DNA of 34,099 bases, taken from the NCBI GenBank assembly GCA_020853135.1, contig JADYZO010000046.1, positions 1-34,099 of the forward strand, read 5' to 3'. Position numbers and translations under genes: made by a program. Below the pieces are notes generated by a model that saw only the letters and a list, made by a program, of their open reading frames with translations, searched no databases and was not told where the DNA came from. This document shows positions 3,080-30,532 of this stretch, piece after piece; position 1 is the stretch's first letter, and each line of letters opens with the position of its first letter. The stretch is from Gammaproteobacteria bacterium. Its GTDB lineage: Bacteria; Pseudomonadota; Gammaproteobacteria; Steroidobacterales; GCA-2729495.

Positions 3080-4201
3080 TCAGTCCCTCGGGCGCAGCGC
3101 CGCCGGCACCAGCACGATGGCGCCGAGGCCGTAAGCCGCGGCCCAGGCACTCCCGGCCAGCCAGAGCGCCAGGTCGCGATGCGCCGGCATGAGCCAGCCG
3201 CCACCGACCCGCACCGCCACCGCGGTCGCCATCGCCACCTGCAGTGCGTACAGCAGCCGGCCCCGCACCGGCATGTTGCCGGCACGCTGGCGGGCCACAC
3301 GCAGGAACATCACCAGCGTCATCGTGCCGATGCCGCCCGCCGCCAGGGCATGCAGCGCACCGGCATCCGGCGGCAGGATGATGCCAAGACGCTGCAGGCC
3401 GATCAGCACCAGCCCGAGCACGATCCAGAAGAAGGCCAGGTGCATGGGCCAGGTCTCCGGGTCGTGCAGGACCCTGCCGCTGTGCCAGCGGACCATCTGC
3501 AGCACGAGCACGCCGGCGACCGCCAGCGCAACCAGCCCGGCGGGAACAGCCTGGCCCAGGGCATCGAGCAACAGCAGCGCCAGCATGCCGAGGATGCCCG
3601 CCAGTTCGAGCCGCGGCCGCGGCACGATCCGCACCACGTAGCCCCGGCTGCGCAGGGCGCCGATGGTTGCAGTCGGCACTGCGCGGCCGCCCATCACCAT
3701 CACCAGCACCGCCACCACGTAGACCGAAAGCACGGCCGGACTCTGTTCGATCACCGCCAGCCAGCCCATCGTGACCGCATAGGTCACGGCGCCGGCCACC
3801 CCCAGCGCCACCATGACCAGCGGGAAGACGAGGTTGCGGGCCCGCTTCACGCCCCCGAAGCGGCGCACCCCGAGCACTGCCAGGACGACCGGGAATGCCG
3901 CACTCGTCAGCGGCGGCAGCCACGGGTTCACCAGGCCGGGCGGCAGCGCCGGGGACAGCCGGCCGGCGAGCCAGAGCAACCAGAGCGCCAGGACCTGCCG
4001 CCGGTCGAGCGCGGGCAGCAGATAGCCGGCGATCACCGCAAAGCTGTAGCCGAACACCATCTCGCGCCCGTGCCACGCAGCCGACGCCGCGTGCCAGTCG
4101 ATGAACCCCTCGCGCGCCGCCAGCCAGGCCAGCACGTTCAGCGGTGCCAGCACCAGCGCAGATGGAAAGAACAGGCGCCAGGGTTCGATCCGGCCTTGCA
4201 A
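3080..4201 (-). CDS. nnrS: NnrS family membrane protein 1
   Basis: The 373-residue polytopic protein has about 12 hydrophobic segments. It begins with the family-typical WRLFFPSALVLAPLNVLAW region, followed by HGREMVFGYSFAVIAGYLL. NnrS proteins are haem- and copper-containing membrane proteins linked to nitric oxide stress in denitrifiers. The start appears to be TTG at 4201: the preceding in-frame codons are CCG and the TAG stop of fnr, so no earlier start exists. CAGGGG lies about 7 bases before the TTG, inside the end of fnr. Only 3 bases separate it from fnr, so translational coupling is likely. Presence with FNR fits induction by low oxygen or NO. The family call is firm; the biochemical activity is not settled. 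Confidence 0.9.
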   Translation of the reverse strand: MQGRIEPWRLFFPSALVLAPLNVLAWLAAREGFIDWHAASAAWHGREMVFGYSFAVIAGYLLPALDRRQVLALWLLWLAGRLSPALPPGLVNPWLPPLTSAAFPVVLAVLGVRRFGGVKRARNLVFPLVMVALGVAGAVTYAVTMGWLAVIEQSPAVLSVYVVAVLVMVMGGRAVPTATIGALRSRGYVVRIVPRPRLELAGILGMLALLLLDALGQAVPAGLVALAVAGVLVLQMVRWHSGRVLHDPETWPMHLAFFWIVLGLVLIGLQRLGIILPPDAGALHALAAGGIGTMTLVMFLRVARQRAGNMPVRGRLLYALQVAMATAVAVRVGGGWLMPAHRDLALWLAGSAWAAAYGLGAIVLVPAALRPRD

Positions 4202-4204
4202 CGG

Positions 4205-4990
4205 CTACCCCTGGCCGTAGGGCAGCATGGGTCCGGCAAGCGCCTGCAGGCGATCCTCGTCCAGCAGCCGCACGGCCTTGCGCCGGACGCTGATCACGCC
4301 CTGCCCCCGCAACTGGGTGAGGACCCGGCTCACCGTCTCGGGGGCGAGGCGCAGGTGGTTGGCGATGTCCTCCCGGGACATGACCAGCTCGAACTCCGAG
4401 TAGCGCCTGCCCTGGGCCTTGAGCCGGCCGGACTGGCTCAGGAGGAAGGCCGCCACACGCACGGCGGCATTGTGGTCGCCGGTGAGCCGGCCCGTGTAGA
4501 GCGCCGAGCGGCTCGCGATGCGCAACAGGCCGAGGACCAGCCCCGGGAACAGCTGTGCGAGCCGCAGGATCTCGCTGAACGACAGGTGACACACCGTCGA
4601 TGGCACCAGGGCGACGGCGCTGACCGCATGCCGTCCGTGGTAGATCGCCGCGAATCCCAGGACTTCACCGGGCAGGTGGAAATTGAGGATGTGCTCGCTG
4701 CCGTCCGCGTCGACCACCGTGGACTTCAGGCCGCCGGAACGCACCGCGAACAGCGAGGAGAACTCCTCGCCCGCATGGAACAGGACCTTGCCCGCGGCGA
4801 CCGTGCGCTGCCGCGTGACCATGGTTTCCAGCTGCGGCACCTGCGCGGACGGCACGCTGCCGGGCAGGCAGACGCGGGCCACCGGGCACCGGCTGCAGGG
4901 CTGGATGTCTTCGGACTCGCCGGTGCGCTCCCGCACCGCTGGCCGGCGTGCCGGCACTGCGCCCGGTCCTGCGGACCCACGCCCTGGCAT
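4205..4990 (-). CDS. fnr: FNR/ANR-type oxygen-sensing transcription regulator
   Basis: This is a Crp/Fnr-family regulator of 261 residues. Cysteines 32, 35 and 41 have the same C-x2-C-x5-C spacing as E. coli FNR C20/C23/C29. C134 lies 93 residues after C41, the same distance as C122 from C29, so all four [4Fe-4S] ligands are present. The cyclic-nucleotide-like beta barrel spans about 50-150. The recognition helix in the C-terminal HTH holds ETVSR, matching the E/S/R residues of FNR that read TTGAT half-sites. ATG at 4990 has a near-perfect AGGAGG. The N-terminus is about 12 residues longer than in E. coli FNR. It is the first gene before nnrS. Candidate target sites in the window are listed separately. 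Confidence 0.93.
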   Translation of the reverse strand: MPGRGSAGPGAVPARRPAVRERTGESEDIQPCSRCPVARVCLPGSVPSAQVPQLETMVTRQRTVAAGKVLFHAGEEFSSLFAVRSGGLKSTVVDADGSEHILNFHLPGEVLGFAAIYHGRHAVSAVALVPSTVCHLSFSEILRLAQLFPGLVLGLLRIASRSALYTGRLTGDHNAAVRVAAFLLSQSGRLKAQGRRYSEFELVMSREDIANHLRLAPETVSRVLTQLRGQGVISVRRKAVRLLDEDRLQALAGPMLPYGQG

Positions 4991-5156: not shown

Positions 5157-6293
5157 TCAGTCGCTGGAAGCCTTCGAGGCCGGCTTCAGCGGTACCGCCT
5201 TGTGCACCCAGTTCTTCGGGTCCTCGCGACGCGCCGGTGACGGGATCACCAGCATCTCGGTATGGCTGCGGCGCTCGTACTCGTCGAGGTCGATCTCGTA
5301 GCCCTGGGCGGCCCACTTGAAGCAGCGCTTGCGGAAGGCCGTCTCCATGCTGTCGGTCTCGGTGAGGAACTCGTCGGAGAGCTTCGCCGGCGTGATGGGT
5401 GGCTTGAGGTCTTCCACCACCGAGAGATCCTCCACCACCGCCAGCTGGATGCCCGCCATGCGCTCGGCGTCGAACTGCGGCTCCTTGAGGTAGTTGCGGG
5501 CCTGCCAGCCGATGGCGCGGCTGAGTTGCCGGTCCACCGGTGTCCGGGCAGTGAAGTTGATCTGGGTCATGCCCTCCTTGAACGTCGGCTGGATGCGGTG
5601 GCAGAGGCCGACCAGGCTGAACTCCAGCTCGACGCTCGTGTTCAGGCGCTCCTCGCTCAGCATCTTGGCCATTTCGCCCGACTTCTGATCCGGCTTCGGT
5701 GCCGGCTTGCGGCGCGTGACCCGCGCGCCCCACTCGGATTCCACCAGCGGGAAGTTCTCGAGCTTGGGTGTGCGCCGGGCACCGAACTGGCGGTGCACGA
5801 ACTGCGTGTGCGCGGTGTCGAGCGAGTTCTCCTCGAAGCGCATCCAGTTGGTCTTGGCCTGGAAGCCGTAGGGAATGCGGTGCCAGCCGACCGGATCATC
5901 GTACTCGGGAAACAGGTCGGGGATGCGCGGGCGCTGGCTCTCGGGCAGGTCGCCGAGGAACACCCACACCCAGCCGTACTTCTCCTGGGTCGGGTAGCTG
6001 TCGACGCGCACGCGCTTGGGGATGCTGATTTCCGGCCCCATGGCGGGGATCAGCGTGCACTGGCCGGTGCCGTTGAACTCCCAGCCGTGGTAGGGACACA
6101 CGACATTGCAGCCGTTCATCTCGCCCTTGCCGAGCGAGGCGCCGCGATGGCAGCAGACGTCGCTCAGGCACACCGCCTTGCCGCTGTCGTCGCGGAACAG
6201 CACGAAGTCGCAGGCCAGCATGCGCGTCTTCAGCGGCTTGTCCTTCCGCACGTCGGAGGCGGCAGCCGCCACATACCAGTTGTTGATCAGCAT
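5157..6293 (-). CDS. Rieske non-haem iron oxygenase, alpha subunit (1)
   Basis: The 378-residue protein begins MLINNWYVAAAASD and has a Rieske [2Fe-2S] domain with ligands C47, H49, C66 and H69 (C-C-H and CPYHGW, normal 16-residue spacing). The catalytic domain has the mononuclear iron motif D-x2-H-x4-H in NSLDTAHTQFVH and a likely Asp ligand in AVVEDLSVVED. The C-terminus carries IPSPARR, shared with the other two Rieske proteins of this window. Family members use O2 and electrons from a reductase to hydroxylate or cleave aromatic, steroid or similar compounds; the substrate cannot be read here. No beta subunit or reductase lies nearby. ATG at 6293 has GGGAGAA upstream, rejecting a 84-residue longer reading. 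A FNR-like palindrome lies about 92 bases before the start. Confidence 0.92.
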   Translation of the reverse strand: MLINNWYVAAAASDVRKDKPLKTRMLACDFVLFRDDSGKAVCLSDVCCHRGASLGKGEMNGCNVVCPYHGWEFNGTGQCTLIPAMGPEISIPKRVRVDSYPTQEKYGWVWVFLGDLPESQRPRIPDLFPEYDDPVGWHRIPYGFQAKTNWMRFEENSLDTAHTQFVHRQFGARRTPKLENFPLVESEWGARVTRRKPAPKPDQKSGEMAKMLSEERLNTSVELEFSLVGLCHRIQPTFKEGMTQINFTARTPVDRQLSRAIGWQARNYLKEPQFDAERMAGIQLAVVEDLSVVEDLKPPITPAKLSDEFLTETDSMETAFRKRCFKWAAQGYEIDLDEYERRSHTEMLVIPSPARREDPKNWVHKAVPLKPASKASSD

Positions 6294-6384
6294 GGATTGT
6301 TCTCCCGGTGTTTGATTGCCGTGACAGGCACCATCGCGGCCCCGTCCCAGGGATGACCTTACTCCCGGTGGATTGCCTGAATCC

Positions 6385-6398
6385 CTGATGTACATCAG
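6385..6398. promoter_or_regulatory. Candidate FNR-family box (perfect palindrome)
   Basis: CTGATGTACATCAG is a perfect 14-base palindrome with the FNR core TGAT-N4-ATCA; only the outermost T and A of the consensus TTGAT-N4-ATCAA are replaced (C and G). It lies between the divergently transcribed Rieske oxygenase 1 (92 bases from its start) and the methyltransferase (about 128 bases from its start), so it may serve either. Confidence 0.55.
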
Positions 6399-6525
6399 CC
6401 AGGACCTCCGGCACTGCCCCGGCAGACCCGGCGGGCAGCCCGCGGCGGACGGACGAGGGATCTCCGCGCACGGCGCCGGCCTGCTAAGCTGCCGGCGATC
6501 GCCATCCACCCGGGGAACCACAGGC

Positions 6526-7149
6526 ATGGGTGAACAGAGCCGCACGGTGTTCGAACGCCTCTACGCCCGCGCACAGCGGCCGGAGGATCTGCCCTGGCAC
6601 AGCGCCGAGCCCCCCGCCCTGCTGGTCGAAGCCCTGGATGCCCGTGGGGCACCCGGCCCGGCGCTGGATGTCGGTTGCGGCGCCGGCAGCTATTCAATCT
6701 ACATGGCCAGGCGCGGCTACCGTGTCACCGCCGTGGATTTCATGCCGCAGGCCGTCGCGCTGTTGAAGCAACAGGCTTCCTCGCGGCAACTGGACATCAC
6801 CGCGATCCAGGCCGATGTCACCGCCTGGGCGGGCAGCCAGCCGTTCGACGTGGTGCTCGACGTCGGCTGCCTGCACAGCCTCGGGAAGGCGCGCCACGCC
6901 GCCTACAAGGCGCGGCTGCTGCAGTGGCTGGCCCCCGGCGGGGATTTCATCCTCGTGCACTGCGGCAGGCGTGGCTGGTGGGATCGGTGGCCCATCGGGC
7001 CGGATCGTGCATACCACACCGACATCGAGCGGCTGTTCGCGCCCGAACTGGAACTGCGCGCCTACCGGCCCGAACTGCTCACGGGGATGCCGCTGTTCAT
7101 GGGCCGCAGCGCCCTGGCGGGGCGTTACTGGCTGCGTCGCGTGCGCTGA
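6526..7149 (+). CDS. Class I SAM-dependent methyltransferase
   Basis: The 207-residue protein has the class I S-adenosylmethionine-binding motif I LDVGCGAGSYS at about residues 46-56, an acidic residue at the end of strand beta2 (VTAVDFMP) and a motif-IV-like DVVLDVGCLHSL. It resembles small TehB/thiopurine-type methyltransferases; the acceptor substrate is unknown. ATG at 6526 is preceded by CGGGGAA about 9 bases upstream; an in-frame extension to 6373 would cross the FNR-like palindrome and lacks support. It is transcribed divergently from Rieske oxygenase 1 and ends 33 bases before the convergent PspC gene. A role in detoxification or in methylating a pathway intermediate is possible but not shown. 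Confidence 0.85.
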   Translation: MGEQSRTVFERLYARAQRPEDLPWHSAEPPALLVEALDARGAPGPALDVGCGAGSYSIYMARRGYRVTAVDFMPQAVALLKQQASSRQLDITAIQADVTAWAGSQPFDVVLDVGCLHSLGKARHAAYKARLLQWLAPGGDFILVHCGRRGWWDRWPIGPDRAYHTDIERLFAPELELRAYRPELLTGMPLFMGRSALAGRYWLRRVR

Positions 7150-7569: not shown

Positions 7570-8751
7570 ATGTATATCAATTTCTGGTACCCGATGGTCC
7601 GCAGCGAGGACCTGAGTGCCGAAAAGCCTGAGAAGGTCAAGGTCCTCGGTCTGAACTTCGCGGTGTTCCGTGACAAGGAAGGCATCGCCCGCACCATCAG
7701 CGACACCTGTACCCACCGCGGCGGCTCGCTGGCCGGCGCGTGGCAGCTGCCGACCCAGCCGCGCATCGTCGATGGCTGCATCGTGTGCCCCTACCACGGC
7801 TGGGAATTCGGCGGCGACGGCGAGTGCAAGAACATCCCGTCGATCGGCTACGGCACCAAGCCGCCGGCCCGCGCCAAGGTCGATTCCTACCCGACGGTGG
7901 AGAAGTACGGCATCGTCTTCGCCTTCCTCGGCGACCTGCCTGAGAACGAGCGTCCGCCGCTGATCGAGGTCAAGGAGTGGGGTGATCCCAAGTGGCGCGC
8001 CAACTCGGTGCTCGTCCTCGACGTGCCCTTCCACTTCGAGCGCTCCATCGAGAACGGCATCGACCCGGCGCACAACGAGTTCGTGCACCCGACCCACGGC
8101 CACTCCGCGATCAACCGCGAAACCTACAAGGTCCGCGAGCACGACGTGATCGAGGGCGACCAGAAGCTCGGCATCATGTTCAAGCACCGCTATGCGGCAC
8201 CGGGCCTGCAGCACAACGAGACCTACAAGAGCGTCAGCGCCAACGCCCCGGCCCAGGACATCTACGCCGGCACCGAGACCTACGGCCCGGCCGCGATGAT
8301 CACCACGATCGAGCCCACCGCGGGCATGGCGTTCCGCCAGTACTTCATCGAGCAGCCGGTGGACGAGACCCGCACGCGGATCTTCTTCGTCAACATGCGC
8401 AACTTCATGCTCGACGCGAAGAACGACGGCCCGATCCACGCGCGCAACAAGGTCATCGCCCAGCAGGACATCGAGACGCTGAGCGGCGTCTACCCCGTGC
8501 GCACGCCGATCCCCAACACCCGGGAAGTCCACATGCCGGCGGACAAGGCCGTCGTGGGTTACCGCGAGTGGCTCGCCAAGTGGGACGACAAGGGCTGGCG
8601 CATCGACTGGAACCAGTTCAGGGAGCGCAACGCCAAGGGCGAGACCGCCTTCGCGATCCCGAGCCCGGGCCGTCGCACCTCCGGCAACTGGGTGCTGGAG
8701 ACCGTGCCGCTGTTCAAGAACCGCAAGGCACGCGAGGACGCGACCAAGTAG
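7570..8751 (+). CDS. Rieske non-haem iron oxygenase, alpha subunit (2)
   Basis: The 393-residue protein starts MYINFWYPMV. Rieske ligands are C47, H49, C73 and H76, but the spacing between the two pairs is 23 residues instead of the 16 found in the other two homologues here; the extra seven residues fall around WQLPTQPRI. The catalytic domain has D-x2-H-x4-H in NGIDPAHNEFVHPTHG, and the likely Asp iron ligand is in VIAQQDIETL. The C-terminus has IPSPGRR. It is most like Rieske oxygenase 3 (shared PxHNEFxHPTHG). The gene stands alone between its own promoter and a strong terminator, so it is monocistronic and no partner protein is co-transcribed. The ribosome-binding site is GGCAGGAG. Substrate unknown. 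Confidence 0.93.
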   Translation: MYINFWYPMVRSEDLSAEKPEKVKVLGLNFAVFRDKEGIARTISDTCTHRGGSLAGAWQLPTQPRIVDGCIVCPYHGWEFGGDGECKNIPSIGYGTKPPARAKVDSYPTVEKYGIVFAFLGDLPENERPPLIEVKEWGDPKWRANSVLVLDVPFHFERSIENGIDPAHNEFVHPTHGHSAINRETYKVREHDVIEGDQKLGIMFKHRYAAPGLQHNETYKSVSANAPAQDIYAGTETYGPAAMITTIEPTAGMAFRQYFIEQPVDETRTRIFFVNMRNFMLDAKNDGPIHARNKVIAQQDIETLSGVYPVRTPIPNTREVHMPADKAVVGYREWLAKWDDKGWRIDWNQFRERNAKGETAFAIPSPGRRTSGNWVLETVPLFKNRKAREDATK

Positions 8752-8791
8752 GGATCAGCTGATCCAGCGCCTTTCCTGAAGAGGTGCAATG

Positions 8792-8823
8792 ACGGGCGGC
8801 CCCCTGGGCCGCCCGTTTTTTTT
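8792..8823 (+). terminator. Rho-independent terminator of Rieske oxygenase 2
   Basis: An 11-base-pair GC-rich stem (8792-8802 and 8806-8816, starting ACGGGCGGCCC) has a 3-base loop and is followed by eight T's (8816-8823). The last T is also the first base of the convergent enolase-like gene's stop codon, so the two transcription units abut exactly. Confidence 0.9.
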
Positions 8824-10115
8824 CATCGGCCCGGATTGCGTCCGAAGATTCCGGCTCCGGCAAAGCGCGCGCGGGCACCCAGGCGCTCCTCGATGCGCAG
8901 CGCCTCGTTCCACTTCGCCATGCGCTCGCTGCGCGCGAAGGAACCCACCTTGAGCTGCCCGGTCCCCCAGCCGATCGCCAGGTGGACGATGGTGGTGTCC
9001 TCGCTCTCGCCCGAGCGGGCCGAGACGATTCCCGCGTAGCCGGCCGACTGTGCGGCCTGCCAGGCGCGCAGCACCTCGGTGAGCGTACCGCGCTGGTTGG
9101 GCTTGAGGAGCACGGCGTTCGCTGCGCCGATCAGCGCCGCCTCCCGCACGCGTGCGGCATCGGAAACGAGGAAATCATCGCCGATGACCTGCACCCGGTC
9201 GCCCACCGCGCGCGTGAAGCGCGCGAAACCCTCCGGATCGTCCTCGGCGAGCGGATCCTCGATCGAGAGGATCGGGTAGCGGCCGATCCAGCCGAGCAGC
9301 ATGTCGATCATGCCGTCGGAGTCCAGCTCGCGCGACTCCAGCCCCAGCGTGTAGCGCCCGCCGCGGCCGAACTCCGAGGCGGCCACGTCCAGCACGATCC
9401 CGACCTGCTCGCCGGGAATGAAGCCCGCCTTCGCGATGGCTGCCACCAGCGTCTCCAGCGCCTGCTCGTTGGTGGCGAAGTCCGGCCACCAGCCGCCTTC
9501 GTCGGCGACGCCGGCACGCGAACCGCGCGCCTGCATCAGTTCGCCGGCGCTGCGATAGACCTCGGCGGTCCATTCCAGCGCCTCGCAGAAGCTCGTTGCA
9601 CCGGGACAGGCGACCAGGAAGTCCTGGATGTCCACGCGACGGCCCGCGTGCGCCCCGCCGCCGAAGATCTGGATCTGCGGCATCGGCAGGAGCACCGCCG
9701 CGGGACCGCCAAGATATTCATAGAGCGGCACCCGCAGCGAGGCGGCAGCGGCATGCGCTGCCGCCATCGACACCGCGAGCGTCGCATTGGCGCCGAGGCG
9801 CGCCTTGGCGGGCGTGCCATCGAGCGCGATCAGCCGTTCGTCGAGCGCGGCCTGCCCATCCGCCCGGCAGCCGCCGAGGGCACGCGCAATCTCGCCGTTG
9901 ACGTTGCCGACCGCCCGCTGCACATCGAAGCCGCCGAAGGCGGGCGTCCCGTCACGCAGTTCGAGCGCCTCGCGCGAGCCCCTGGATGCGCCGGCGGGCA
10001 CGATGGCGCTGCCGACCGCACCATCGGCCAGGACCACCTCGGCCTCGACCGTCGGCCGGCCACGGCTGTCCCAGACACGGCGCGCGTGGATCGAGCGGAT
10101 ACTTCGGGGATTCAT
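8823..10115 (-). CDS. Enolase-family paralogue with altered active-site residues
   Basis: The 430-residue protein has full-length enolase architecture. Retained: metal ligands D243, E286 and D313, lysines K338 and K389, E206 (ADEGG), H156 and the loop serine S44. Changed relative to standard enolases: the glutamate of the QEFM motif is D165 (QDFL); the histidine of SHRSGETEDT is A366 (SARSGESEDT); the mobile loop PSGASTG reads PAGASRG; KxNQIG reads KPNQRG. These positions line the 2-phosphoglycerate site, so the enzyme may dehydrate another phosphorylated hydroxy acid; weak or normal enolase activity cannot be excluded. Its ATG overlaps the stop of the kinase gene (ATGA), and it is last in the acyl-CoA operon, an unusual place for a glycolytic gene. 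The antisense-looking N-terminal extension of the frame is rejected because it overlaps the kinase. Confidence 0.88.
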   Translation of the reverse strand: MNPRSIRSIHARRVWDSRGRPTVEAEVVLADGAVGSAIVPAGASRGSREALELRDGTPAFGGFDVQRAVGNVNGEIARALGGCRADGQAALDERLIALDGTPAKARLGANATLAVSMAAAHAAAASLRVPLYEYLGGPAAVLLPMPQIQIFGGGAHAGRRVDIQDFLVACPGATSFCEALEWTAEVYRSAGELMQARGSRAGVADEGGWWPDFATNEQALETLVAAIAKAGFIPGEQVGIVLDVAASEFGRGGRYTLGLESRELDSDGMIDMLLGWIGRYPILSIEDPLAEDDPEGFARFTRAVGDRVQVIGDDFLVSDAARVREAALIGAANAVLLKPNQRGTLTEVLRAWQAAQSAGYAGIVSARSGESEDTTIVHLAIGWGTGQLKVGSFARSERMAKWNEALRIEERLGARARFAGAGIFGRNPGR

Positions 10116-11128
10116 CGGGCAAGTTCCTCCTGCCAGGCTGTGCGGACCAGGGCCAATCGGTCGACGGGGTGCTGCAACAGTGCGCGGGCCACGCGCCGCA
10201 CCCGCTCGCGATCGGCCTCGGCGGTGATGTATTCGACCGGTGACTTGCCATCCACCCGCGCCAGGAACAGCCCGGGCAGCAGCGCCGCAACCCGGCGCTC
10301 GAGCGCCCCGCGCGGCTCCCAGGCGACGGCCTGCAGGTGGGCATCGGCCAGGGCGTCGAAGGCGGCGAGGAAGGCGGCCGTGGCCGGACGGTTCCACAGG
10401 CACTTGAGCAGCAGATGGTTCAGGCAGAACGCGAGGTCAAACGCGGGGTCGCCCCACCAGGCGCATTCCGCATCGAGGAACACCGGCCCGCGGGGCCCGA
10501 TGAGGATGTTCTTGGGGCTCACATCGCCGTGCACCAGCGCCACGGCGTGCGACTGCGTGGCCTCGACGAGCTGCTCCAGCGCCGGTGCGAGGTCTGGGTG
10601 GCGCCGCGCGGTGGCCAGCAGGTACGGCTCCAGCCGGATGTCGAAGAAGATGCCGTCGGTGGCGAACTCCGCCGCAAGCGCCGGCCGCGCCGCCGAATGG
10701 GCGTGGATGCGCCCCAGGGCGTGGCCGACCGCCTGCGCGGTCGGCGGATCCGCCTGTCCGTCGCGCAACAGCTGCTTCCACAGGCGGTAATCGGCCGAAG
10801 CCAGATAGCTCATCACCAGCACGCCGAGCCCCTGGTGCTGGCCGAGCACGCGCGGCGCACAGCCGGGGGAGGCCTCGTTGGCCACCTGCATCCAGCGTGC
10901 CTCGTAGAGGTTGCGCTCCACCGGCGCATGCCAGTCGGCCGCAACCCGCAATTTCGGCAATGCCCGCTTGGCGCACACCGGCCCCTGCGGGGTGTCGATG
11001 CGCCAGATGTCGGAGGACACCCCACCGGTGAGCGGTGCGCCCGTCAGCACCCCGGCACCGGCAAGCCCCAGCTCGCGCAGGGCCTGCACGAATTCATCGG
11101 GAACCGCAGGATCGCCGGCAGGGGGCAT
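10112..11128 (-). CDS. APH/choline-kinase-fold small-molecule phosphotransferase
   Basis: The 338-residue protein has the aminoglycoside phosphotransferase (APH) fold signature. The catalytic loop is HGDVSPKN (H200, D202, N207) and the metal-binding DAE begins at D219, followed by WWGDPAFDLAF. The N-lobe has a glycine-rich GGVSSDIWRI and a candidate lysine in VCAKRAL. Family members phosphorylate hydroxyl groups of small molecules (choline, homoserine, methylthioribose, antibiotics). Given its operon with CoA ligases and a four-base overlap with the enolase paralogue, a metabolic kinase that supplies the enolase substrate is more plausible than antibiotic resistance; that is inference. The start is uncertain: ATG at 11128 or TTG at 11137, neither with a good Shine-Dalgarno sequence. 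Confidence 0.85.
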   Translation of the reverse strand: MPPAGDPAVPDEFVQALRELGLAGAGVLTGAPLTGGVSSDIWRIDTPQGPVCAKRALPKLRVAADWHAPVERNLYEARWMQVANEASPGCAPRVLGQHQGLGVLVMSYLASADYRLWKQLLRDGQADPPTAQAVGHALGRIHAHSAARPALAAEFATDGIFFDIRLEPYLLATARRHPDLAPALEQLVEATQSHAVALVHGDVSPKNILIGPRGPVFLDAECAWWGDPAFDLAFCLNHLLLKCLWNRPATAAFLAAFDALADAHLQAVAWEPRGALERRVAALLPGLFLARVDGKSPVEYITAEADRERVRRVARALLQHPVDRLALVRTAWQEELAR

Positions 11129-11158
11129 GGTCAGCAATCGCGTGCGCAGCCTGCGGGA

Positions 11159-12769
11159 CTAAGGCGACGCCGCGCCGGCCCTGGCCACCCAGGCCTTGCG
11201 CAGCTCGCGCTTGAGAACCTTGCCGTTGGGATTGCGCGGCAGGGTCGCGACGATGTGCACCTCGCGGATGCGCTGGCGCTTGCCGACCCGCTGGTTGGTC
11301 CAGTCGCGGATCTCGCCTGCCACCTCCCCGCCAGCCCCGGGCGCACGCAGCACCACGATGGCCACCGGGCTCTCGCCCCAGCGCTCGTCGGGCACGCCGA
11401 TCACCGCCACCTCCCCCACCAGCGGATGCTCCACCATCACCGCTTCGATATCGGCGGGATAGATGTTCTGGCCACCCGAGAGCACCATGTCTTTCTTGCG
11501 GTCGATGATGTAGAGATAGCCGTCTTCGTCGGTGCGCCCGATGTCACCCGAGCGCATCCACTGGATTCCCCGGCTGTCGATGAACATCGCCTCGCGGGTG
11601 GCATCGGGCCGGTTGTGGTACCCGATCATCCAGTGCACGCTGCGGGCACAGATTTCCCCCGCGCCGCCCCAGGGCACCTCCCGGTCATTGTCGTCGAGCA
11701 GGATGTAGTCGTTGCCGCGCACCGGCTTGCCGACGGAGGCCAGCCTGCCCTCGGCTTCCTCCGGCTGGAGCGTGGTCATGAATCCCTCGGTGAGACCGTA
11801 GAGCTCGATCACCGCGCAGGAAAAGTTCTCCATCACCCGGCGCTTGAGCCCCTCGAACAGCGGCGAGCCGCCCGAGAGGACCGCCTGGACCGATTTCACC
11901 GCGGCTGGCCGGAAGTTCGGCGCATCGAGGATGCGCTGGAACATGATCGGCACCATCATCGCGTGGGTGACCCGGTGGCGCTCGACATCGCCGATCCAGG
12001 CCGCCGGGTCGAACTGGCGGCGGATGAGGCAGGTGCCGCCGACGATCAGCGAGCACATGAGCGAACCCCAGGCGACGTTCGAATACAGGCCGATCGGGCA
12101 GATCGAGATGGCCCCGTAGTGGTAGCGGTGCGCCATGGCCAGTTCATAGATGGACTGCACCCGGCGGCGATGCAGGTGCTTGATCCCCTTGGGGAGGGCC
12201 GTGGTGCCCGAGCTGTAGATGATGTTGCAGGGTTCATCGTCGCCGATGGTGACCGCCGGCTGGCCGGTGTCCTGCTGCCCGCGCCAGCGGGCATAGCCCC
12301 CCGCGGCACCATCGTGCACCAGGACCCCGCCGGGCAACAGCGCAGGCACTTCGCCCAGCCGGGCAGCCAGCCGCAGCTGTTGCGCCGGGCTGCAGAACAG
12401 GACCCGTACCGCGGCATCCTGCAGCATCATCAGCAGCCCACCCTCCGGCACCGCGAGGTTCAGCGGCACGACGACCGCTCCCGCCTTCCAGGCGCCGTAG
12501 AGCATCTCGACGTATTCCACGCAGTTCTCGAGCAGGATCGCCACCGAGTCGCCGTTGCGCACGCCGAGGGCCCGCAGGCCGTTGGCGACCGCATTCGACC
12601 GCTCGTCGAGCGCCCCCCAGGTCAGCGTGGCCTCCTCGTCGGCGACTGCCGGTTTCGCCGGATACCATCGCGCATTGAGGCGCACATAGTCCGGCAGCAG
12701 GGGGCCGGCGAAATCGAAACGGTCCGGCATCGCGGGCGGGGTCGCAGGGGTGTTGCCTGGGATGTTCAT
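11159..12769 (-). CDS. Acyl-CoA synthetase (AMP-binding, class I adenylate-forming) 2 of the operon
   Basis: The 536-residue protein carries all ANL-family motifs: the P-loop IIYSSGTTALPKG, YGLTE, the hinge DRKKDMVLSGGQNIYP, and the catalytic C-terminal lysine in NPNGKVLK. It activates a carboxylic acid to the acyl-AMP and then acyl-CoA. The acid-binding pocket cannot be interpreted by eye; the fatty acyl-CoA ligase/feruloyl-type subgroup is likely. ATG at 12769 has GGAG upstream. It follows the crotonase gene by 23 bases and precedes the kinase by 30, so it belongs to the six-gene operon. It is the second CoA ligase in that operon, suggesting either two acid intermediates or alternative substrates. 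Confidence 0.9.
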   Translation of the reverse strand: MNIPGNTPATPPAMPDRFDFAGPLLPDYVRLNARWYPAKPAVADEEATLTWGALDERSNAVANGLRALGVRNGDSVAILLENCVEYVEMLYGAWKAGAVVVPLNLAVPEGGLLMMLQDAAVRVLFCSPAQQLRLAARLGEVPALLPGGVLVHDGAAGGYARWRGQQDTGQPAVTIGDDEPCNIIYSSGTTALPKGIKHLHRRRVQSIYELAMAHRYHYGAISICPIGLYSNVAWGSLMCSLIVGGTCLIRRQFDPAAWIGDVERHRVTHAMMVPIMFQRILDAPNFRPAAVKSVQAVLSGGSPLFEGLKRRVMENFSCAVIELYGLTEGFMTTLQPEEAEGRLASVGKPVRGNDYILLDDNDREVPWGGAGEICARSVHWMIGYHNRPDATREAMFIDSRGIQWMRSGDIGRTDEDGYLYIIDRKKDMVLSGGQNIYPADIEAVMVEHPLVGEVAVIGVPDERWGESPVAIVVLRAPGAGGEVAGEIRDWTNQRVGKRQRIREVHIVATLPRNPNGKVLKRELRKAWVARAGAASP

Positions 12770-12792: not shown

Positions 12793-13551
12793 TCAGGTGA
12801 AATTCGGGCGCCGCTTCTCGCGAAACGCGCGCAATGCCTCGGCGCCCTCCGCCGAGCCCAGCCCGAGGAAGACACCACGCTCTTCTTCGCGGATCCGTTC
12901 AAGCAATCCTGCCGTGTCGCCCTTCATCAGCCGCTTCGCCCGCCGCATGGCCTGCGGCGGCTTGCTGGCGAACTCGGCAGCAATCTCCAGCGCCACCTTG
13001 TCGACAGCTCCCGGCTCGGCGAGCCTCGAAACGATGCCGAGGCGGTGGGCCTCGGTGCCGTCGATGGAGCCCGCACGCAGGACCAGGTCCGCGGCACGGG
13101 TGTAGCCGAGAAGGCGCACCAGCAGCAGGGAGGAGCCCGCCTCCGGCACCAGCGCCAGGTTGAGGAACGGGAAGACGATACGCGAACCCGCGCTCGCCAC
13201 CACCGAGTCGAGGTGCAGCAGCATGGTCGAACCGATGCCCGCGGCCACGCCTTCCACCGCCGCCACGATGGGCACGCTGGCATTGACCAGCGCCTTGACG
13301 AAGCGCATGACCGGGGTCGGTCCCTGCTGGCCGGATCCTGCGTCCGGGAAGTCCCCCACGTCGTTGCCGGAACAGAAGTTGCCACCCGCGCCGCCGAGCA
13401 CCACCGCGCGCACGGCGGTGTCCGCCTCGGCCCGCTCGAGCGCCTCGCTGATCACGTCATACATGGGCAGCGTCAGCGCATTCTTCTTTTCCGGCCTGTT
13501 CATGCGGATCTGCAGCACATGGCGCTCGAAGTGCGTGGTCACCGTGGTCAT
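12793..13551 (-). CDS. Enoyl-CoA hydratase/isomerase family protein (crotonase)
   Basis: The 252-residue protein shows the crotonase oxyanion-hole regions: NFCSGNDVGDF and EGVAAGIGSTMLLHLD. The catalytic region reads LNLALVPEAGSS. The first of the two classical hydratase glutamates appears replaced (FPFLN where crotonase has a QPE-like sequence), while the second is kept in VPEAGSS. This pattern resembles PaaG-type isomerases and related enoyl-CoA hydratases, so hydration or double-bond isomerisation are both possible. ATG at 13551 overlaps the stop of the upstream CoA ligase (ATGA), and the frame's upstream extension is rejected for that reason. The role is probably a beta-oxidation-like step on the CoA ester made by the neighbouring ligases. 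Confidence 0.9.
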   Translation of the reverse strand: MTTVTTHFERHVLQIRMNRPEKKNALTLPMYDVISEALERAEADTAVRAVVLGGAGGNFCSGNDVGDFPDAGSGQQGPTPVMRFVKALVNASVPIVAAVEGVAAGIGSTMLLHLDSVVASAGSRIVFPFLNLALVPEAGSSLLLVRLLGYTRAADLVLRAGSIDGTEAHRLGIVSRLAEPGAVDKVALEIAAEFASKPPQAMRRAKRLMKGDTAGLLERIREEERGVFLGLGSAEGAEALRAFREKRRPNFT

Positions 13552-15122
13552 GCGGATCCTCCGGGTTGCGGGCTGCCCGTCGCGTAACGCCGCCGCAGCG
13601 TCACCCGGTCGAGCTTGCCGGTCACTCCGACGGGCAACCGCTCGTGGAATACATAGGTCTTGGGCTGCTTGAAGGACGCCAGGCGCCCGCGGCAGTGCTC
13701 CCGCAGCTCCTCTTCCGTGGTGCCGGTGGCCACCGCGACGTGCGCCTCGATGCGCTGTCCCCATTTCGGGTCCCTGACGCCGATGACCGCCACCTGCAGC
13801 ACGGCCGGGTGGGCCATCAGGCAGATCTCGACCTCCTCACCCTGCACCTTGATGCCGCCGCTGTTGATGGTGTTGTCGGTGCGCCCCGCGACGTGCAGGT
13901 AGCCATCGGCATCGAGGTGCCCCATGTCGCCCGAGCGCCACCAGCCAGCCACGAAGCGGCGCGCGGTCAGTTCGGGGTTGCCCAGGTAGCCGGTGGAGAG
14001 CGTCGGGCCCCGCAGCAGGATCTCCCCGCTCTCGCCCACCGGCCGCAGGTCATCGATGCCACCCTCCGGATCGACGATGCGCAGGTCGGCGCCGGGAACC
14101 GGCTTGCCGGCACAGACCGGCTTGCCGCGCAGCGTCTGGTCCCGCAGCTCCCAGCAGGTCGCCGCCCCGGGTGCGGATTCCGATGCCAGGTACAGGCAGC
14201 GGATGTCGGTGTCGGCCCAGGAGCGCACCCGCTCGATGTCGGCGGGCGATGGCGGCTCGCCGGCGCACAGGACCATGCGCAGGGAGCCGAGGTCGTAGCG
14301 GCGGGTGATCTCCGGTTCCAGCATGCGGATCATCGTCGGCACCGGCCCCACCATGGTCACCTTCTCGCGCTCGATCGTGGCGCAGAAGGACTCCGGCGTG
14401 AAGCCCTCCACCAGCACCTGCGTGGCGCCCGCGTACAGGGTCGAGATCGACGAGAACGGCCAGGCCGCGAACGAGGTGCCGACCATGACCAGCAGCCGCG
14501 TGTGGCGCGAGACATCGCCGAACAGGGCCGGCACGGCCTGCATCCAGCGGACGAAATTCCCGTTGCTGTGCACGATCCCCTTGGGCGTGCCGGTCGATCC
14601 CGAGGACAGGATGATGATGGCCGGATCATCGGCAGAGGGCCGCGCCTGCGGCTCCTCGGCCGGATGACGCGCCAATGCCTGCGCATACGCCAGGTCGACG
14701 CCCGGCGGCGGCACATCGCCCAGCGAGAGCACCAGGGGCTTCCCCGGCAGCCTCGCCACGGCCTCGGTGACCATGGCGGCGGCGCCGTCGGCGCAGACCA
14801 CGGCCCGGGCGCCGATGGCGCGCAGCGTGGTGTCGATGAAGGCCACCGGCTCGCGCACGTTGATGTTGCAGGTGACGCAGCCGAGCTTCTGCGCGGCGAG
14901 GAACGCCGCATAGAAACGGCAGGTCGACGGCCCGAGGAAGGCCACGGCATCCCCCTGCGCGATGCCCGCGTGCTGCAGGGCCTGCGCGACCGCCCGCGCC
15001 TCGCGGTTCAGCCGTTCGCCGGTGTAGCGGTCCCTGCCATCCACCAGCAGTTCTGAGCCGGCGTGCCACCGGCAGAGCAGGTCGATGGCGTGGCGCACGG
15101 TGCAGGGATCGCTGGCAGCCAT
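13548..15122 (-). CDS. Acyl-CoA synthetase (AMP-binding) 1 of the operon
   Basis: The 524-residue adenylate-forming enzyme has the P-loop IILSSGSTGTPKG, SGDMGHLDADG, the hinge GRTDNTINSGGIKVQ and the C-terminal lysine in GVTGKLDR. The usual Y-G-x-T-E motif that contacts AMP is YLASES here, so the Thr is Ser and the Gly is replaced. It resembles short- or medium-chain and aryl acid CoA ligases rather than long-chain ones. It lies 3 bases after the quinone-oxidoreductase-like gene and overlaps the crotonase gene by 4 bases, so it is tightly coupled. It likely activates a carboxylic acid intermediate for degradation. The substrate is not determinable. Confidence 0.9.
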   Translation of the reverse strand: MAASDPCTVRHAIDLLCRWHAGSELLVDGRDRYTGERLNREARAVAQALQHAGIAQGDAVAFLGPSTCRFYAAFLAAQKLGCVTCNINVREPVAFIDTTLRAIGARAVVCADGAAAMVTEAVARLPGKPLVLSLGDVPPPGVDLAYAQALARHPAEEPQARPSADDPAIIILSSGSTGTPKGIVHSNGNFVRWMQAVPALFGDVSRHTRLLVMVGTSFAAWPFSSISTLYAGATQVLVEGFTPESFCATIEREKVTMVGPVPTMIRMLEPEITRRYDLGSLRMVLCAGEPPSPADIERVRSWADTDIRCLYLASESAPGAATCWELRDQTLRGKPVCAGKPVPGADLRIVDPEGGIDDLRPVGESGEILLRGPTLSTGYLGNPELTARRFVAGWWRSGDMGHLDADGYLHVAGRTDNTINSGGIKVQGEEVEICLMAHPAVLQVAVIGVRDPKWGQRIEAHVAVATGTTEEELREHCRGRLASFKQPKTYVFHERLPVGVTGKLDRVTLRRRYATGSPQPGGSA

Positions 15123-15125
15123 CGC

Positions 15126-16106
15126 TCAGTCCCGGATGCGGACCACGACCTTGCCGATCACCGACCGGCTGGCGACTGCGGCGAGCGCCTCCACGGCCCG
15201 GTCCAGCGTGAAGACCCGGTCGATGCGCGGGCGGACGGCGCCTCGGGCAAAGAGTTCCATGAGCTCGGCGAAATTGCGGTCGACCGCCCCGCGCTCGTGC
15301 GTGAAGAAACCCTGGTAGTTGACGCCGATGAGCGCATTCTCCTTGAGCAGCGCCAGGTTGGTCGCGTACTGGCCGATCTGCCCGCTGGCGAAGCCGACGA
15401 TGAGGATGCGCCCGTTGCGCCGCGCCGTGCGGCAGGCCTGGCCGAAGAGTTCACCGCCCACCGGGTCGAAGACGACATCGACGCCCGCGCCATCGGTCAG
15501 CCGGCGCACCGCCTCGCGCAGATCCTCCTGGCCGAGATCGATCAGTTCACCGAAGCCCTCCTCGCGCAGGGCCGCCGCCTTGGCGGCCGAGCCCACCACG
15601 CCGATCACCCGCGCCCCCATCGCGCGACCGATCTGCATGGCGGCCATGCCAACGCCGCCGGCAGCACCGAGCACCAGGAGGGTTTCCCCGCTGCGCAGGG
15701 CCGCGCGCTGCCTCAGTGCGTGGTAGGAGGTGGTGTGGCCACCCTGGAAGACGGCCGCGCACAGCATGTCCATCGGGTCCGGGACCGGCACGATGACCCG
15801 CGCCGGGACCACGGCTTCCTCGGCCAGCCCGCCCCAGAACAGCGTGGCCATGACCCGCTGGCCGATAGTCAATCCGCCGACACCGGCACCGACTTCGCTG
15901 ATGGTCCCGGCCACCTCGCCGCCCGGGAAAAACGGCAATGGCGGGCGCACCTGGTATTTCCCCTGCGCCAGCAGGATGTCCGGGAAGTTGATGCCACAGG
16001 CATGCACCTGGATCCGGACCTCGCCCTCGCCCAGCCGTGGCGGTCCCACCTCCTGCACCCGCAGGTCCTCCAGCGGACCGAACGCGGTGCAGACGAGCGC
16101 CTTCAT
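15126..16106 (-). CDS. Zinc-free MDR-family quinone oxidoreductase/enoyl reductase
   Basis: The 326-residue medium-chain dehydrogenase/reductase has the N-terminal GroES-like domain (VHACGINFPDILLAQGKY, PFFPGGEVAG) and the Rossmann motif LGAAGGVGMAAMQIG at about 147-161. No catalytic zinc cysteines or structural four-Cys loop are visible, placing it with NADPH:quinone oxidoreductases and related enoyl reductases. In a CoA-ester operon it may reduce an alpha,beta-unsaturated carbonyl; that is inference. ATG at 16106 has a strong AGGAGT Shine-Dalgarno sequence. It is the first gene of the six-gene operon, immediately downstream of the TonB receptor's terminator. Its promoter must lie in the 16107-16190 gap or upstream read-through feeds it. 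Confidence 0.9.
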   Translation of the reverse strand: MKALVCTAFGPLEDLRVQEVGPPRLGEGEVRIQVHACGINFPDILLAQGKYQVRPPLPFFPGGEVAGTISEVGAGVGGLTIGQRVMATLFWGGLAEEAVVPARVIVPVPDPMDMLCAAVFQGGHTTSYHALRQRAALRSGETLLVLGAAGGVGMAAMQIGRAMGARVIGVVGSAAKAAALREEGFGELIDLGQEDLREAVRRLTDGAGVDVVFDPVGGELFGQACRTARRNGRILIVGFASGQIGQYATNLALLKENALIGVNYQGFFTHERGAVDRNFAELMELFARGAVRPRIDRVFTLDRAVEALAAVASRSVIGKVVVRIRD

Positions 16107-18920: not shown

Positions 18921-19859
18921 ATGAAAGTCCTGTTCCACCATGACGCCGGCCGGCGCCTGCGTGCCGAGGTGGCGGCGCTGGCCGACGCCGGGCTCACCCT
19001 CGTCTACTGCCCGGAGGGCCCGGAAGAACCATTGTTCAGCGAACTTCACGATGCCGAGGTGCTCTGGCACGTGCTGTGGCCGGTGACGGCGGCGGTCATC
19101 GCCCGGGCACCGAAGCTGCGGCTGATCCAGAAGATCGGCGTGGGCGTCAACACCATCGACATCGAGGCGGCGCAACGCCGCGGCATCGCCGTGTGCAACA
19201 TGCCCGGCACGAACAGCCGTGCGGTTGCCGAGATGGCACTGCTGCTCATGCTCAATACGCTGCGGCGCCAGCACAGCGTCGAGCAGGCGCTGCGCAACGG
19301 CCGCTGGGTGCTGGATGAGGCCACACGGGAATCGCTGGGCGAGCTGGCCGGCCGCACCGTCGGCCTCGTCGGGTTCGGCGCCGTGCCGGGCATCCTGGCG
19401 CCGATCCTCGCGGCCATGGGCGCCCGCGTCGTCTACACGGACACTGCGCCGAAGGCCGTGCCCTGGGAATACCTGCCGCTGGAGCGCCTGCTCGGCGAGG
19501 CCGACATCGTCACGCTGCATGTGCCGCTCACCGATGCCACCACGCGCCTCATCGACCGCCAGCGCATCGCCCGCATGAAGCCCGGCGCAATCCTGATCAA
19601 TACCGCCCGGGGCGGCCTCGTCGACGAAGGCGCGTTGCACGAGGCACTGGCAACCGGCCGGCTCGGGGGCGCCGGCCTCGACGTGTTCGCCGAGGAACCG
19701 GTCAGCGCCGGCAATCCACTGTTTCAGCTGCCCAACGTCACGGTGTCGCCACACGTCGCCTGGCTGACGCTGGACACCTGGAAGCGCAGCATCGCCGCCG
19801 CGCTGGGCAACGTGCGGGCCCTGCGCGCGGGGACGCCGCTCAGCAACCGCGTCGCGTAG
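18921..19859 (+). CDS. D-2-hydroxyacid dehydrogenase (NAD-binding)
   Basis: The 312-residue protein belongs to the D-isomer 2-hydroxyacid dehydrogenase family (phosphoglycerate/hydroxypyruvate type). Catalytic residues are visible: Arg in NTARGGLVDE, Glu in LDVFAEEPV and His in VSPHVAW. The dinucleotide motif reads VGFGAVPG, with Pro in place of the third glycine of GxGxxG. The acidic residue after beta2 (VVYTDTAP) favours NAD over NADP. ATG at 18921 has GAGGAAGG upstream, so a long upstream extension in the frame is rejected. It is divergent from the TonB receptor and separated from the next gene by 204 bases. Physiologically it interconverts a 2-hydroxy acid and a 2-keto acid; the substrate is unknown. 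Confidence 0.9.
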   Translation: MKVLFHHDAGRRLRAEVAALADAGLTLVYCPEGPEEPLFSELHDAEVLWHVLWPVTAAVIARAPKLRLIQKIGVGVNTIDIEAAQRRGIAVCNMPGTNSRAVAEMALLLMLNTLRRQHSVEQALRNGRWVLDEATRESLGELAGRTVGLVGFGAVPGILAPILAAMGARVVYTDTAPKAVPWEYLPLERLLGEADIVTLHVPLTDATTRLIDRQRIARMKPGAILINTARGGLVDEGALHEALATGRLGGAGLDVFAEEPVSAGNPLFQLPNVTVSPHVAWLTLDTWKRSIAAALGNVRALRAGTPLSNRVA

Positions 19860-24316: not shown

Positions 24317-25495
24317 CTACTGGTCCGCGCGCGGCCCGGTGAGGATCGGGGCGTACACCCAGAGGAACAGGCTGAAGGCGGCCACCCAGAGCAGCGCGGC
24401 CGTATCGATCATCGCCATGTAGGGGCCGGGCAGCAGCGGCCCGAAGCTGCGCAGGACAGCGGCGAGCGCCAGCAGCACATAGGCGACGGCGATCGGGCGC
24501 ACCACGACCAGCGGCCTCCCGGTGTGGCCGAGCGCCACGCGGGTCATCATGGCGAGGATCATCCCGCTGATGCCGCCGATGGTCAGCAGGTGCAGCGCCG
24601 CAGTGCGTGGCAGCGGCAGGCCGAGGGCGGTGGCGCCCAGCAGCACATAGCCTGCCGCCGCACAGGCATAGGCCAGGTGCAGCGACCACAGCAGCGGGTT
24701 CGACAAGGCCTTCGACCCCTGCCAGCCATTGAGCCGCCAGAGATTGACCGCGCCGGCCAGCAGGCAGGCCAGGCCGGCCGGCAGCGTGTCGGGTGCCAGC
24801 GTATCGGCGGCCCCCGCCACGGCCACCAGCGCGATGGCCAGCGGATCAAGCAGCGGCCGGACCGTCGGCGGTGGACGGGAGTCGCCCCGCATCCGCAGCC
24901 AGTTCGCCGTGAACAGCGGTATGACCCGGCCGCCGACCACGGCGATGAGCAGCATGAGCAGGTGGACCATCACCGTGGCGCAGAGACGGTCGGCGCCCGG
25001 GATGATCCCCGCCTCGCCGAGGTGGTACAGGAGCACGAGCGCAGGCAGCACCCAGGTGATGGCGGCGATGCCGTAGTTGCGCCGGCTCCCGCCCCCGACG
25101 ATCTCCCGGCCCGCGAACACCGCCAGCAGCACCGGGAAGGCCAGGTCAATGACCGCCAGCCACGGCGCCGGCAACCCGCCGCCGAGGGTGGCCGCCAGGC
25201 GACCGGCCAGCCAGGCCGCGACCAGGACGAGCAGCCACGGCCCCCGCAGCGGCGTGCGGCCGGTCCAGCTGGCGACCGCGGTCAGCAGGAAGCCGGCCAC
25301 CACCCCGCCGCCGAAACCCAGCGCCATTTCCCGGGCATGCCACAGCGAGGAAATGACCAGCGGCGCGCCGGGCCAGCGCAGGCCGTGGAAGCCGGTGATC
25401 CACAACGCCAGCGCCAGCACGGCATACAGGCCGGCAAGCAGGAAGAACGGGCGGAACGCGTAACTGAGGAAGACGGGAGGGTTGTTCTGGCTCAT
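24317..25495 (-). CDS. nnrS: NnrS family membrane protein 2
   Basis: The 392-residue polytopic protein has the family hallmark YAFRPFFLLAGLYAVLAL at its N-terminus, HAREMALGFGGGVVAGFLLTA, and conserved histidines in VMVHLLMLLIAVVGGRVIP, LWSLHLAYA and LHLLTIGG. It is clearer than, and diverged from, NnrS 1. ATG at 25495 (MSQNNPPVF) is chosen because family similarity starts there; the 100 upstream codons in the same frame run antisense-like through the 3' end of the Rieske gene. It lies 125 bases after Rieske oxygenase 3 and 175 bases before the hydrolase on the same strand. NnrS proteins respond to nitric oxide; a second copy inside an oxygenase/hydrolase run suggests protection of iron enzymes, which is inference. 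Confidence 0.93.
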   Translation of the reverse strand: MSQNNPPVFLSYAFRPFFLLAGLYAVLALALWITGFHGLRWPGAPLVISSLWHAREMALGFGGGVVAGFLLTAVASWTGRTPLRGPWLLVLVAAWLAGRLAATLGGGLPAPWLAVIDLAFPVLLAVFAGREIVGGGSRRNYGIAAITWVLPALVLLYHLGEAGIIPGADRLCATVMVHLLMLLIAVVGGRVIPLFTANWLRMRGDSRPPPTVRPLLDPLAIALVAVAGAADTLAPDTLPAGLACLLAGAVNLWRLNGWQGSKALSNPLLWSLHLAYACAAAGYVLLGATALGLPLPRTAALHLLTIGGISGMILAMMTRVALGHTGRPLVVVRPIAVAYVLLALAAVLRSFGPLLPGPYMAMIDTAALLWVAAFSLFLWVYAPILTGPRADQ

Positions 25496-25580
25496 GGTGA
25501 CCGACGTGGCTGCCCGCGGACTGGCGGCGGGCGGTATTGTCGGTGAATGCCGCAGGCGGTGCCAGAGCAGGCGCCGGCGG

Positions 25581-25607
25581 CTGGCCGGGTCCTGCGGACC
25601 CGGCCAG
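25581..25607 (-). terminator. Strong hairpin after Rieske oxygenase 3
   Basis: A perfect 12-base-pair stem (25581-25592 and 25596-25607, CTGGCCGGGTCC with its complement) has a 3-base loop and lies 13 bases after the Rieske stop codon. No T tract follows, so it may be a transcript-end stabiliser or attenuator rather than a complete intrinsic terminator. Confidence 0.45.
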
Positions 25608-25620
25608 CGTGCAGGATCCC

Positions 25621-26775: not shown

Positions 26776-26876
26776 GAACCATCCTCCCGGGAGATGGGCG
26801 CACACGCGAGCGGGCGCGGGCACCGTGATTGCTGAACCGTCCTGGCGCATCTAAATTCCACTGCACCCGGCGCATC

Positions 26877-26890
26877 TTGACCTGCGTCAT
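26877..26890. promoter_or_regulatory. Candidate FNR/DNR-type box
   Basis: TTGACCTGCGTCAT matches the DNR/NNR-style form TTGAC-N4-GTCAA except for the final base. It lies in the divergent region between Rieske oxygenase 3 (about 102 bases from its start) and the FAD hydroxylase (39 bases from its start), and close to nirS further downstream. Confidence 0.5.
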
Positions 26891-26928
26891 CCGGGGGCCG
26901 GGTCCGCGGCTTCAGTCCACGTGGTGGA

Positions 26929-30532
<3,604 letters not shown>

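Follow-up and report, generated by a model that had tools for sequence, protein, structure and literature searches.

Enolase is usually regarded as a one-reaction family. The glycerate 2-kinases that feed it (GarK, GckA/MOFRL) follow a reductase-kinase-enolase logic, and their operons rely on the ordinary enolase of the cell. Aldonate and dihydroxyacid dehydratases (IlvD/EDD and the MR/MLE enolase superfamily) convert a 2,3-dihydroxy acid into a 2-oxo-3-deoxy acid with no known phosphorylation step. Here, we describe a kinase-enolase gene pair from a 34,099-nucleotide stretch of gammaproteobacterial DNA (contig JADYZO010000046.1 of assembly GCA_020853135.1; the whole stretch is called the window below), in which the gene of a small-molecule kinase of the APH fold overlaps that of an enolase paralogue. 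Its logic resembles that of the glycerate 2-kinases, but the kinase is of another family; the net conversion that we propose for it is that of the dehydratases, except that it would pass through a phosphorylation step. The nearest principle that we found in print is that of LvaA/LvaC and ACAD10/11, pairs of a 4-hydroxyacyl-CoA kinase and an acyl-CoA dehydrogenase, where likewise a kinase-like protein activates a hydroxyl ahead of its removal (PMC12440821). Those pairs, however, act on CoA esters with an acyl-CoA dehydrogenase as the second enzyme, whereas the partner in the window is an enolase, so the locus is not of the LvaA/LvaC type. In the open-licence full-text literature we found no paper on the kinase-enolase pair, judged by titles and the beginnings of abstracts; other work may exist.

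The kinase and the enolase are kept together across genomes. A kinase scan of named genomes confirmed 188 loci. All counts out of 80 refer to the best 80 of these, a choice that over-represents near relatives. The enolase adjoins the kinase on the same strand, 0-123 bases 3' of the kinase match, in 77 of the 80 loci, and in the remaining three the contig ends 62-145 bases after the kinase match. Among 369 gammaproteobacterial genomes six carry the kinase (the window's own included), with the enolase adjoining in 5/5 others. Of 40 genomes from the window's family, six have the kinase; these six belong to the window's genus, which is represented by 10 genomes. An enolase-first search (E 1e-128 or better, 398 Pseudomonadota genomes) returned nine matches besides the window's own. 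Eight of them carry the active-site residues D165 and A366 described below, and all eight genomes encode the kinase, which adjoins in six and lies about 5 and about 8 kb off in two; the ninth match has an ordinary active site and comes from a genome without the kinase. Kinase and enolase distances correlate with r = 0.80 (72 loci). Thus, the pair is a conserved gene module; a co-occurrence check had been proposed in an earlier, sequence-only reading of the window. The species labels of the metagenome bins L029, L031, L039, L040, L054, L068 and L090 may be wrong; the doubtful names are Bordetella parapertussis, Asaia bogorensis, Planctomycetia and Nitrosovibrio, which are implausible beside similarly ranked loci.

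The window's enolase paralogue belongs to the enolase family (EC 4.2.1.11) by sequence, with 162.5 bits for Enolase_N and 290.1 bits for Enolase_C (the PF03952/PF00113 pair) and 488.8 bits for TIGR01060, whose NCBI cut-off is 300. It is like glycolytic enolase in both domains and keeps the metal ligands and the equivalents of K345/K396, E211, R374/S375 and H159, but it is without those of Glu168 and His373, which are kept in the canonical rows. The residues named in the sequence-only reading (H156, D165, E206, D243, E286, D313, K338, A366, K389 and the loop PAGASRG) are all present. Of the mobile-loop changes listed there, Arg45 is not conserved: position 45 among 85 paired enolases is T in 52, K in 20 and R in 13. 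In the same 85-row alignment A41 is found in 82/85 rows, D165 in 84/84 and A366 in 83/83.

We then scored the signature in 92 paired against 49 canonical rows, not every row being scorable at each site. D165 occupies 90/90 paired rows where canonical enolases have E (47/47), A366 stands in 88/88 against H in 48/48, and A204 in 89/89 against G in 48/48, i.e. GDEGG becomes ADEGG. R159 (88/90, against N in 46/47) and W210 (89/90, against A in 48/48) are almost as constant, and A41 replaces S in 88/91 paired rows. The R367-S368 phosphate site, H156, the general acid, the metal ligands and both lysines are retained in the paired enolases. We take positions 165 and 366 to be Glu168 and His373 of yeast enolase, which presumably contact the leaving C3-hydroxyl, and position 41 to be Ser39 of the yeast lid loop. 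In yeast enolase, a single substitution at a site of this kind greatly reduces activity on 2-phosphoglycerate. A literature search on the roles of these enolase active-site residues found nothing. D165, A366 and ADEGG recur in a lineage that is 45-50% identical (Methylobacterium, Rhodococcus, Sphingobium), with a kinase relative adjoining, and again in one Bacteroidota copy and one more Rhodococcus copy, both of which also stand beside a kinase relative.

In the enolase tree the signature enolases are split from 45 canonical rows with an ultrafast bootstrap of 100, and from 51 rows with a FastTree support of 1.0 when Bacillota and Actinomycetota are added. Not included in the trees were L048, two fragments of a broken L101 copy and eight short rows, of which four were paralogues and four canonical. 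Since the window genome's own enolase is in the canonical set twice (as L001 and L127), the figures of 49, 45 and 51 rows each stand for one gene fewer. That second, canonical enolase lies on contig C107 and is 50.6% identical to the paralogue over the aligned part; a canonical-type copy was found in 11/11 pair genomes tested, in G126 and G250 as fragments only. The tree and the second enolase, two of the conditions that the sequence-only reading had named for its refutation, thus did not refute it. The paralogue differs from glycolytic enolase in forming its own clade, in having Asp for Glu168, Ala for His373, ADEGG for GDEGG, an Arg within the HA-x-x loop and usually Ala for Ser39, and further in its kinase linkage and its presence beside a canonical enolase. 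We conclude that, on sequence grounds, it is a member of the enolase family that departs from glycolytic enolase in the two features tested, residues and tree. That it is not the housekeeping enolase, and that kinase and enolase work together, is strongly supported by shared signature, tree and co-occurrence.

Kinase relatives are also carried on plasmids (26 records, a subset of which was fetched), and the one from Enterobacter, with 39% kinase identity, is without a signature enolase. This plasmid (L097, Enterobacter chuandaensis) encodes an enolase homologue of 35% identity that falls on the signature side of the split, with active-site motifs unlike both ordinary and signature enolases, and, next to it, a divergently transcribed kinase relative (at about 8178-9449 and 9848-10903). 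The run also holds aminotransferase, peptidase, nucleotidyltransferase and MFS genes, and resembles a biosynthetic cluster that includes another branch of enolase. One TGA lies within the signature enolase match of L189 (genome G608), which may reflect a sequencing error, a broken gene or recoding.

The kinase matches APH (PF01636) with 70.1 bits, and its Pfam matches at E 0.001 are APH, EcKL, TCAD9 and Fructosamin_kin only; the Pfam scan gave no match to the glycerate kinase families MOFRL and PF02595. The catalytic Asp, the metal-binding Asp and the lysine (H203 G204 D205, D222 and K57) are invariant in 29 rows. The nearest solved folds to the kinase model (pLDDT 92.3) are 5-methylthioribose kinases (Foldseek E 4.3e-15, TM 0.78), and the best NCBIfam match is MTRK (TIGR01767) with 55.1 bits, below the cut-off of 275. 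5-Methylthioribose kinase acts on a polyhydroxy compound and shares the fold and motifs of the APH family with the window kinase, but their identity is only about 16% and the gene context is another.

The recurrent partner of the pair is a 2-oxo-acid reductase from one of two unrelated families (neighbourhood counts are limited to the flanks fetched). In 25/80 loci a gene of the ketopantoate-reductase family (PanE-type; three representatives were scanned and have ApbA/ApbA_C domains) precedes the kinase, stopping at it or a little short of it; counting only loci that have 950 bases or more upstream, the figure is 25/74. A CtBP-type D-2-hydroxyacid dehydrogenase lies 3' of the enolase in 36/80 loci, and in 35 of the 65 loci that extend 3.3 kb or more downstream. 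Both types in one locus were seen in none of the 80, and 51 of the 61 loci with both flanks long enough have one or the other adjacent. On the enolase tree the reductase type was exchanged twice by a Fitch count, in which a locus was labelled by CtBP anywhere in its flanks and tips without either reductase were left open. In the window the 2-hydroxyacid dehydrogenase, which the sequence-only reading had also pointed out, is about 8 kb from the pair on the opposite strand. Its orthologue (77-79% identical) is present in 6/6 genus genomes with the pair and in 0/4 without it, where the best match is 37% or less. That two unrelated families of 2-oxo-acid reductase occupy the same slot suggests a 2-hydroxy acid as the substrate of the kinase.

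It seems to us a nearly even call that the pair is the core of a three-enzyme module, which would reduce, 2-phosphorylate and dehydrate a substrate that bears a group at C3 and is not 2-phosphoglycerate. Judging by the partner genes, a CtBP- or ketopantoate-reductase-type enzyme would reduce a 3-hydroxy-2-oxo acid to a 2,3-dihydroxy acid, whose 2-hydroxyl the APH-fold kinase, from its fold and partners, would phosphorylate. The enolase, with its metal ligands, lysines and Arg-Ser site kept, would then take the 2-proton and the 3-hydroxyl to give an enol phosphate, and this would become a 2-oxo-3-deoxy acid. A C3 group is proposed because the leaving-group contacts are changed in every scored paired copy and a normal enolase is also present; the altered residues argue against 2-phosphoglycerate itself, and the substrate is probably larger than hydroxypyruvate. 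The near-obligatory linkage to a dedicated enolase, despite the canonical-type one in all 11 pair genomes, also speaks for a C3 substituent, as does the ketopantoate-reductase-type partner, known relatives of which reduce branched 2-oxo acids.

The kinase-linked enolase branch occurs in Pseudomonadota, Actinomycetota and a Bacteroidota plasmid. We tentatively suggest that a widespread undescribed route may strip the 3-hydroxyl from 3-hydroxy-2-oxo (or 2,3-dihydroxy) acids larger than hydroxypyruvate, giving substituted phosphoenolpyruvates, with a branch of true enolases outside glycolysis as its last enzyme. If this is true, the enolase family has a second reaction, there is a catabolic route via substituted phosphoenolpyruvates, and there is a systematic annotation error, since the window protein passes the NCBI enolase cut-off. 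The plasmid copies that were fetched with annotation are named phosphopyruvate hydratase or enolase.

The main rival, less likely in our view, is a glycerate module, in which hydroxypyruvate would be reduced to D-glycerate, phosphorylated to 2-phosphoglycerate by the APH protein as a new glycerate 2-kinase, and dehydrated to phosphoenolpyruvate (PEP), the changes in the enolase being tolerated or tuning its kinetics. The sequence-only reading had named a similar route as its plainer alternative; its reductase-first shape is closer to the evidence, whereas the changed leaving-group residues speak against its 2-phosphoglycerate step. In two Rhizobium plasmid loci (L094 and L172) the PEP carboxylase gene ppc, the CtBP gene and the kinase form a single row, and the enolase of the pair lies on the opposite strand at a distance of a few kb. 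The Rhizobium CtBP protein scores, in each case below cut-off, on the models for PGDH, glyoxylate reductase and hydroxypyruvate reductase. However, ppc was matched in 0/80 genome loci within the flanks fetched. E165D and H366A occur in every scorable copy, and with a canonical-type enolase in each pair genome a dedicated one would be unneeded, yet the linkage is nearly complete. The occurrence of other glycerate kinases is mixed and does not decide between the readings: MOFRL is missing in 6/6 genus genomes with the pair and PF02595 in all 15 genomes searched, but MOFRL is also missing in 3/4 genus genomes without the pair and is present in 5/5 other gammaproteobacteria with it.

The glycerate module would also account for the pair being found in unrelated catabolic clusters. 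Acid-sugar genes, mostly in Acetobacteraceae, include a DUF1537-type kinase (10/80 loci), PdxA (8/80), an HpcH/HpaI aldolase (7/80) and a GMC oxidoreductase (18/80). In Roseibium and Paracoccus the surroundings include a sugar transporter. Extradiol-dioxygenase-like VOC protein, cupin, alcohol dehydrogenase, CtBP and FAH-family genes are found in Rhizobium, Rhodococcus and Sphingobium, not all in each record. The pair may replace an aldonate dehydratase in the sugar clusters, although in the Inquilinus cluster (L063) an IlvD/EDD dehydratase is present as well and argues against such a replacement there.

Several of these observations weigh against the proposed three-enzyme module with a C3-substituted substrate. 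One module in aromatic, acid-sugar and sugar clusters could mean a simple common substrate, e.g. glycerate, and PEP carboxylase in the two Rhizobium operons points to PEP. Ten of the 61 long-flank loci have neither reductase adjacent (three of them have one further off), and in Roseibium, Paracoccus and one Rhizobium copy their place is taken by FAH hydrolase and SDR genes. On Rhizobium, Paraburkholderia and Cupriavidus plasmids kinase and enolase share one cluster but stand some kb apart, and the 80 loci are the best of 188, with related genomes among them that do not count as independent.

It is improbable that the phosphate is the leaving group, i.e. that the kinase acts on the beta-hydroxyl of the acid and the phosphate is then lost by elimination on the enolase variant, as with LvaA/LvaC and ACAD10/11. 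The changes do fall at what is presumably the leaving-group site, and there is an established case in which a kinase from this superfamily cooperates with an enzyme whose action on the phosphorylated intermediate gives an enoyl product (PMC12440821). However, the enolase retains the 2-phosphate-binding R367/S368, H156 and the two catalytic lysines, and a 2-hydroxyl is what the partner 2-oxo-acid reductases create. The acyl-CoA-linked dehydroxylation favoured by the sequence-only reading, with the pair acting on a hydroxyacyl-CoA or its acid from the neighbouring ligases and crotonase, is very improbable and its operon was rejected as a general context, since the ligase-crotonase-ligase genes lie within about 2 kb 5' of the pair in the window and four genus relatives but are not on the 14 kb contig of the sixth genus genome, no match to these ligases adjoins the pair outside the genus among the loci listed (those under 5 kb mostly left out), and the recurring partner is a 2-oxo-acid reductase.

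The layout of the locus is given in Table 1. The intact kinase and the full-length enolase homologue share ATGA at 10112-10115 as kinase end and enolase start, as the sequence-only reading had described, and a four-base overlap is found in 72/84 loci, start codons being set by a simple rule. The kinase open reading frame opens at a TTG at 11137; the ATG at 11128 is the start used. The upstream neighbours, which it had named as two CoA ligases, a crotonase and an oxidoreductase, are confirmed as two ligases of the AMP-binding type, a member of the crotonase family and an oxidoreductase of the quinone-reductase type.

Table 1. Positions of the pair, its likely reductase partner and the neighbouring genes in the window
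Feature	Position	Strand	Basis
Enolase paralogue, 430 aa, with D165, A366, R159/R160, A204, W210	8823..10115	-	Pfam, TIGR01060, alignment
APH-fold small-molecule kinase, 338 aa from ATG, HGD-x4-N and DAE motifs	10112..11128	-	Pfam, model
AMP-binding acyl-CoA ligase, genus-specific neighbour	11159..12769	-	Domain match; 5' of pair in genus relatives
Crotonase-family protein; start probably nearer 13548 (Pfam match from residue 80)	12793..13764	-	
Second AMP-binding acyl-CoA ligase	13548..15122	-	Domain match
Quinone-reductase-like medium-chain oxidoreductase	15126..16106	-	Domain match
D-2-hydroxyacid dehydrogenase (CtBP type), likely reductase partner	18921..19859	+	PF02826, 181.6 bits

On an Azospirillum brasilense plasmid (L102, 4855-12903) the module is preceded by a PEP-mutase-family protein, an iron alcohol dehydrogenase, a TRAP transporter and a PhyH dioxygenase. 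Phosphonate chemistry, considered on account of the PEP_mutase, PhyH and iron alcohol dehydrogenase genes, was dropped, as the PEP_mutase query matched 0/80 loci. The window itself encodes three Rieske oxygenases with VanA-type C-terminal domains, at 5157-6545 (-), 7570-8751 (+) and 25621-26850 (-), and one of these genes is convergent with the enolase. Two NnrS proteins, a Crp-family regulator and a cytochrome d1-domain protein are encoded at 3080-4990 and 24317-30532; these are nitric-oxide or denitrification genes around the catabolic region.

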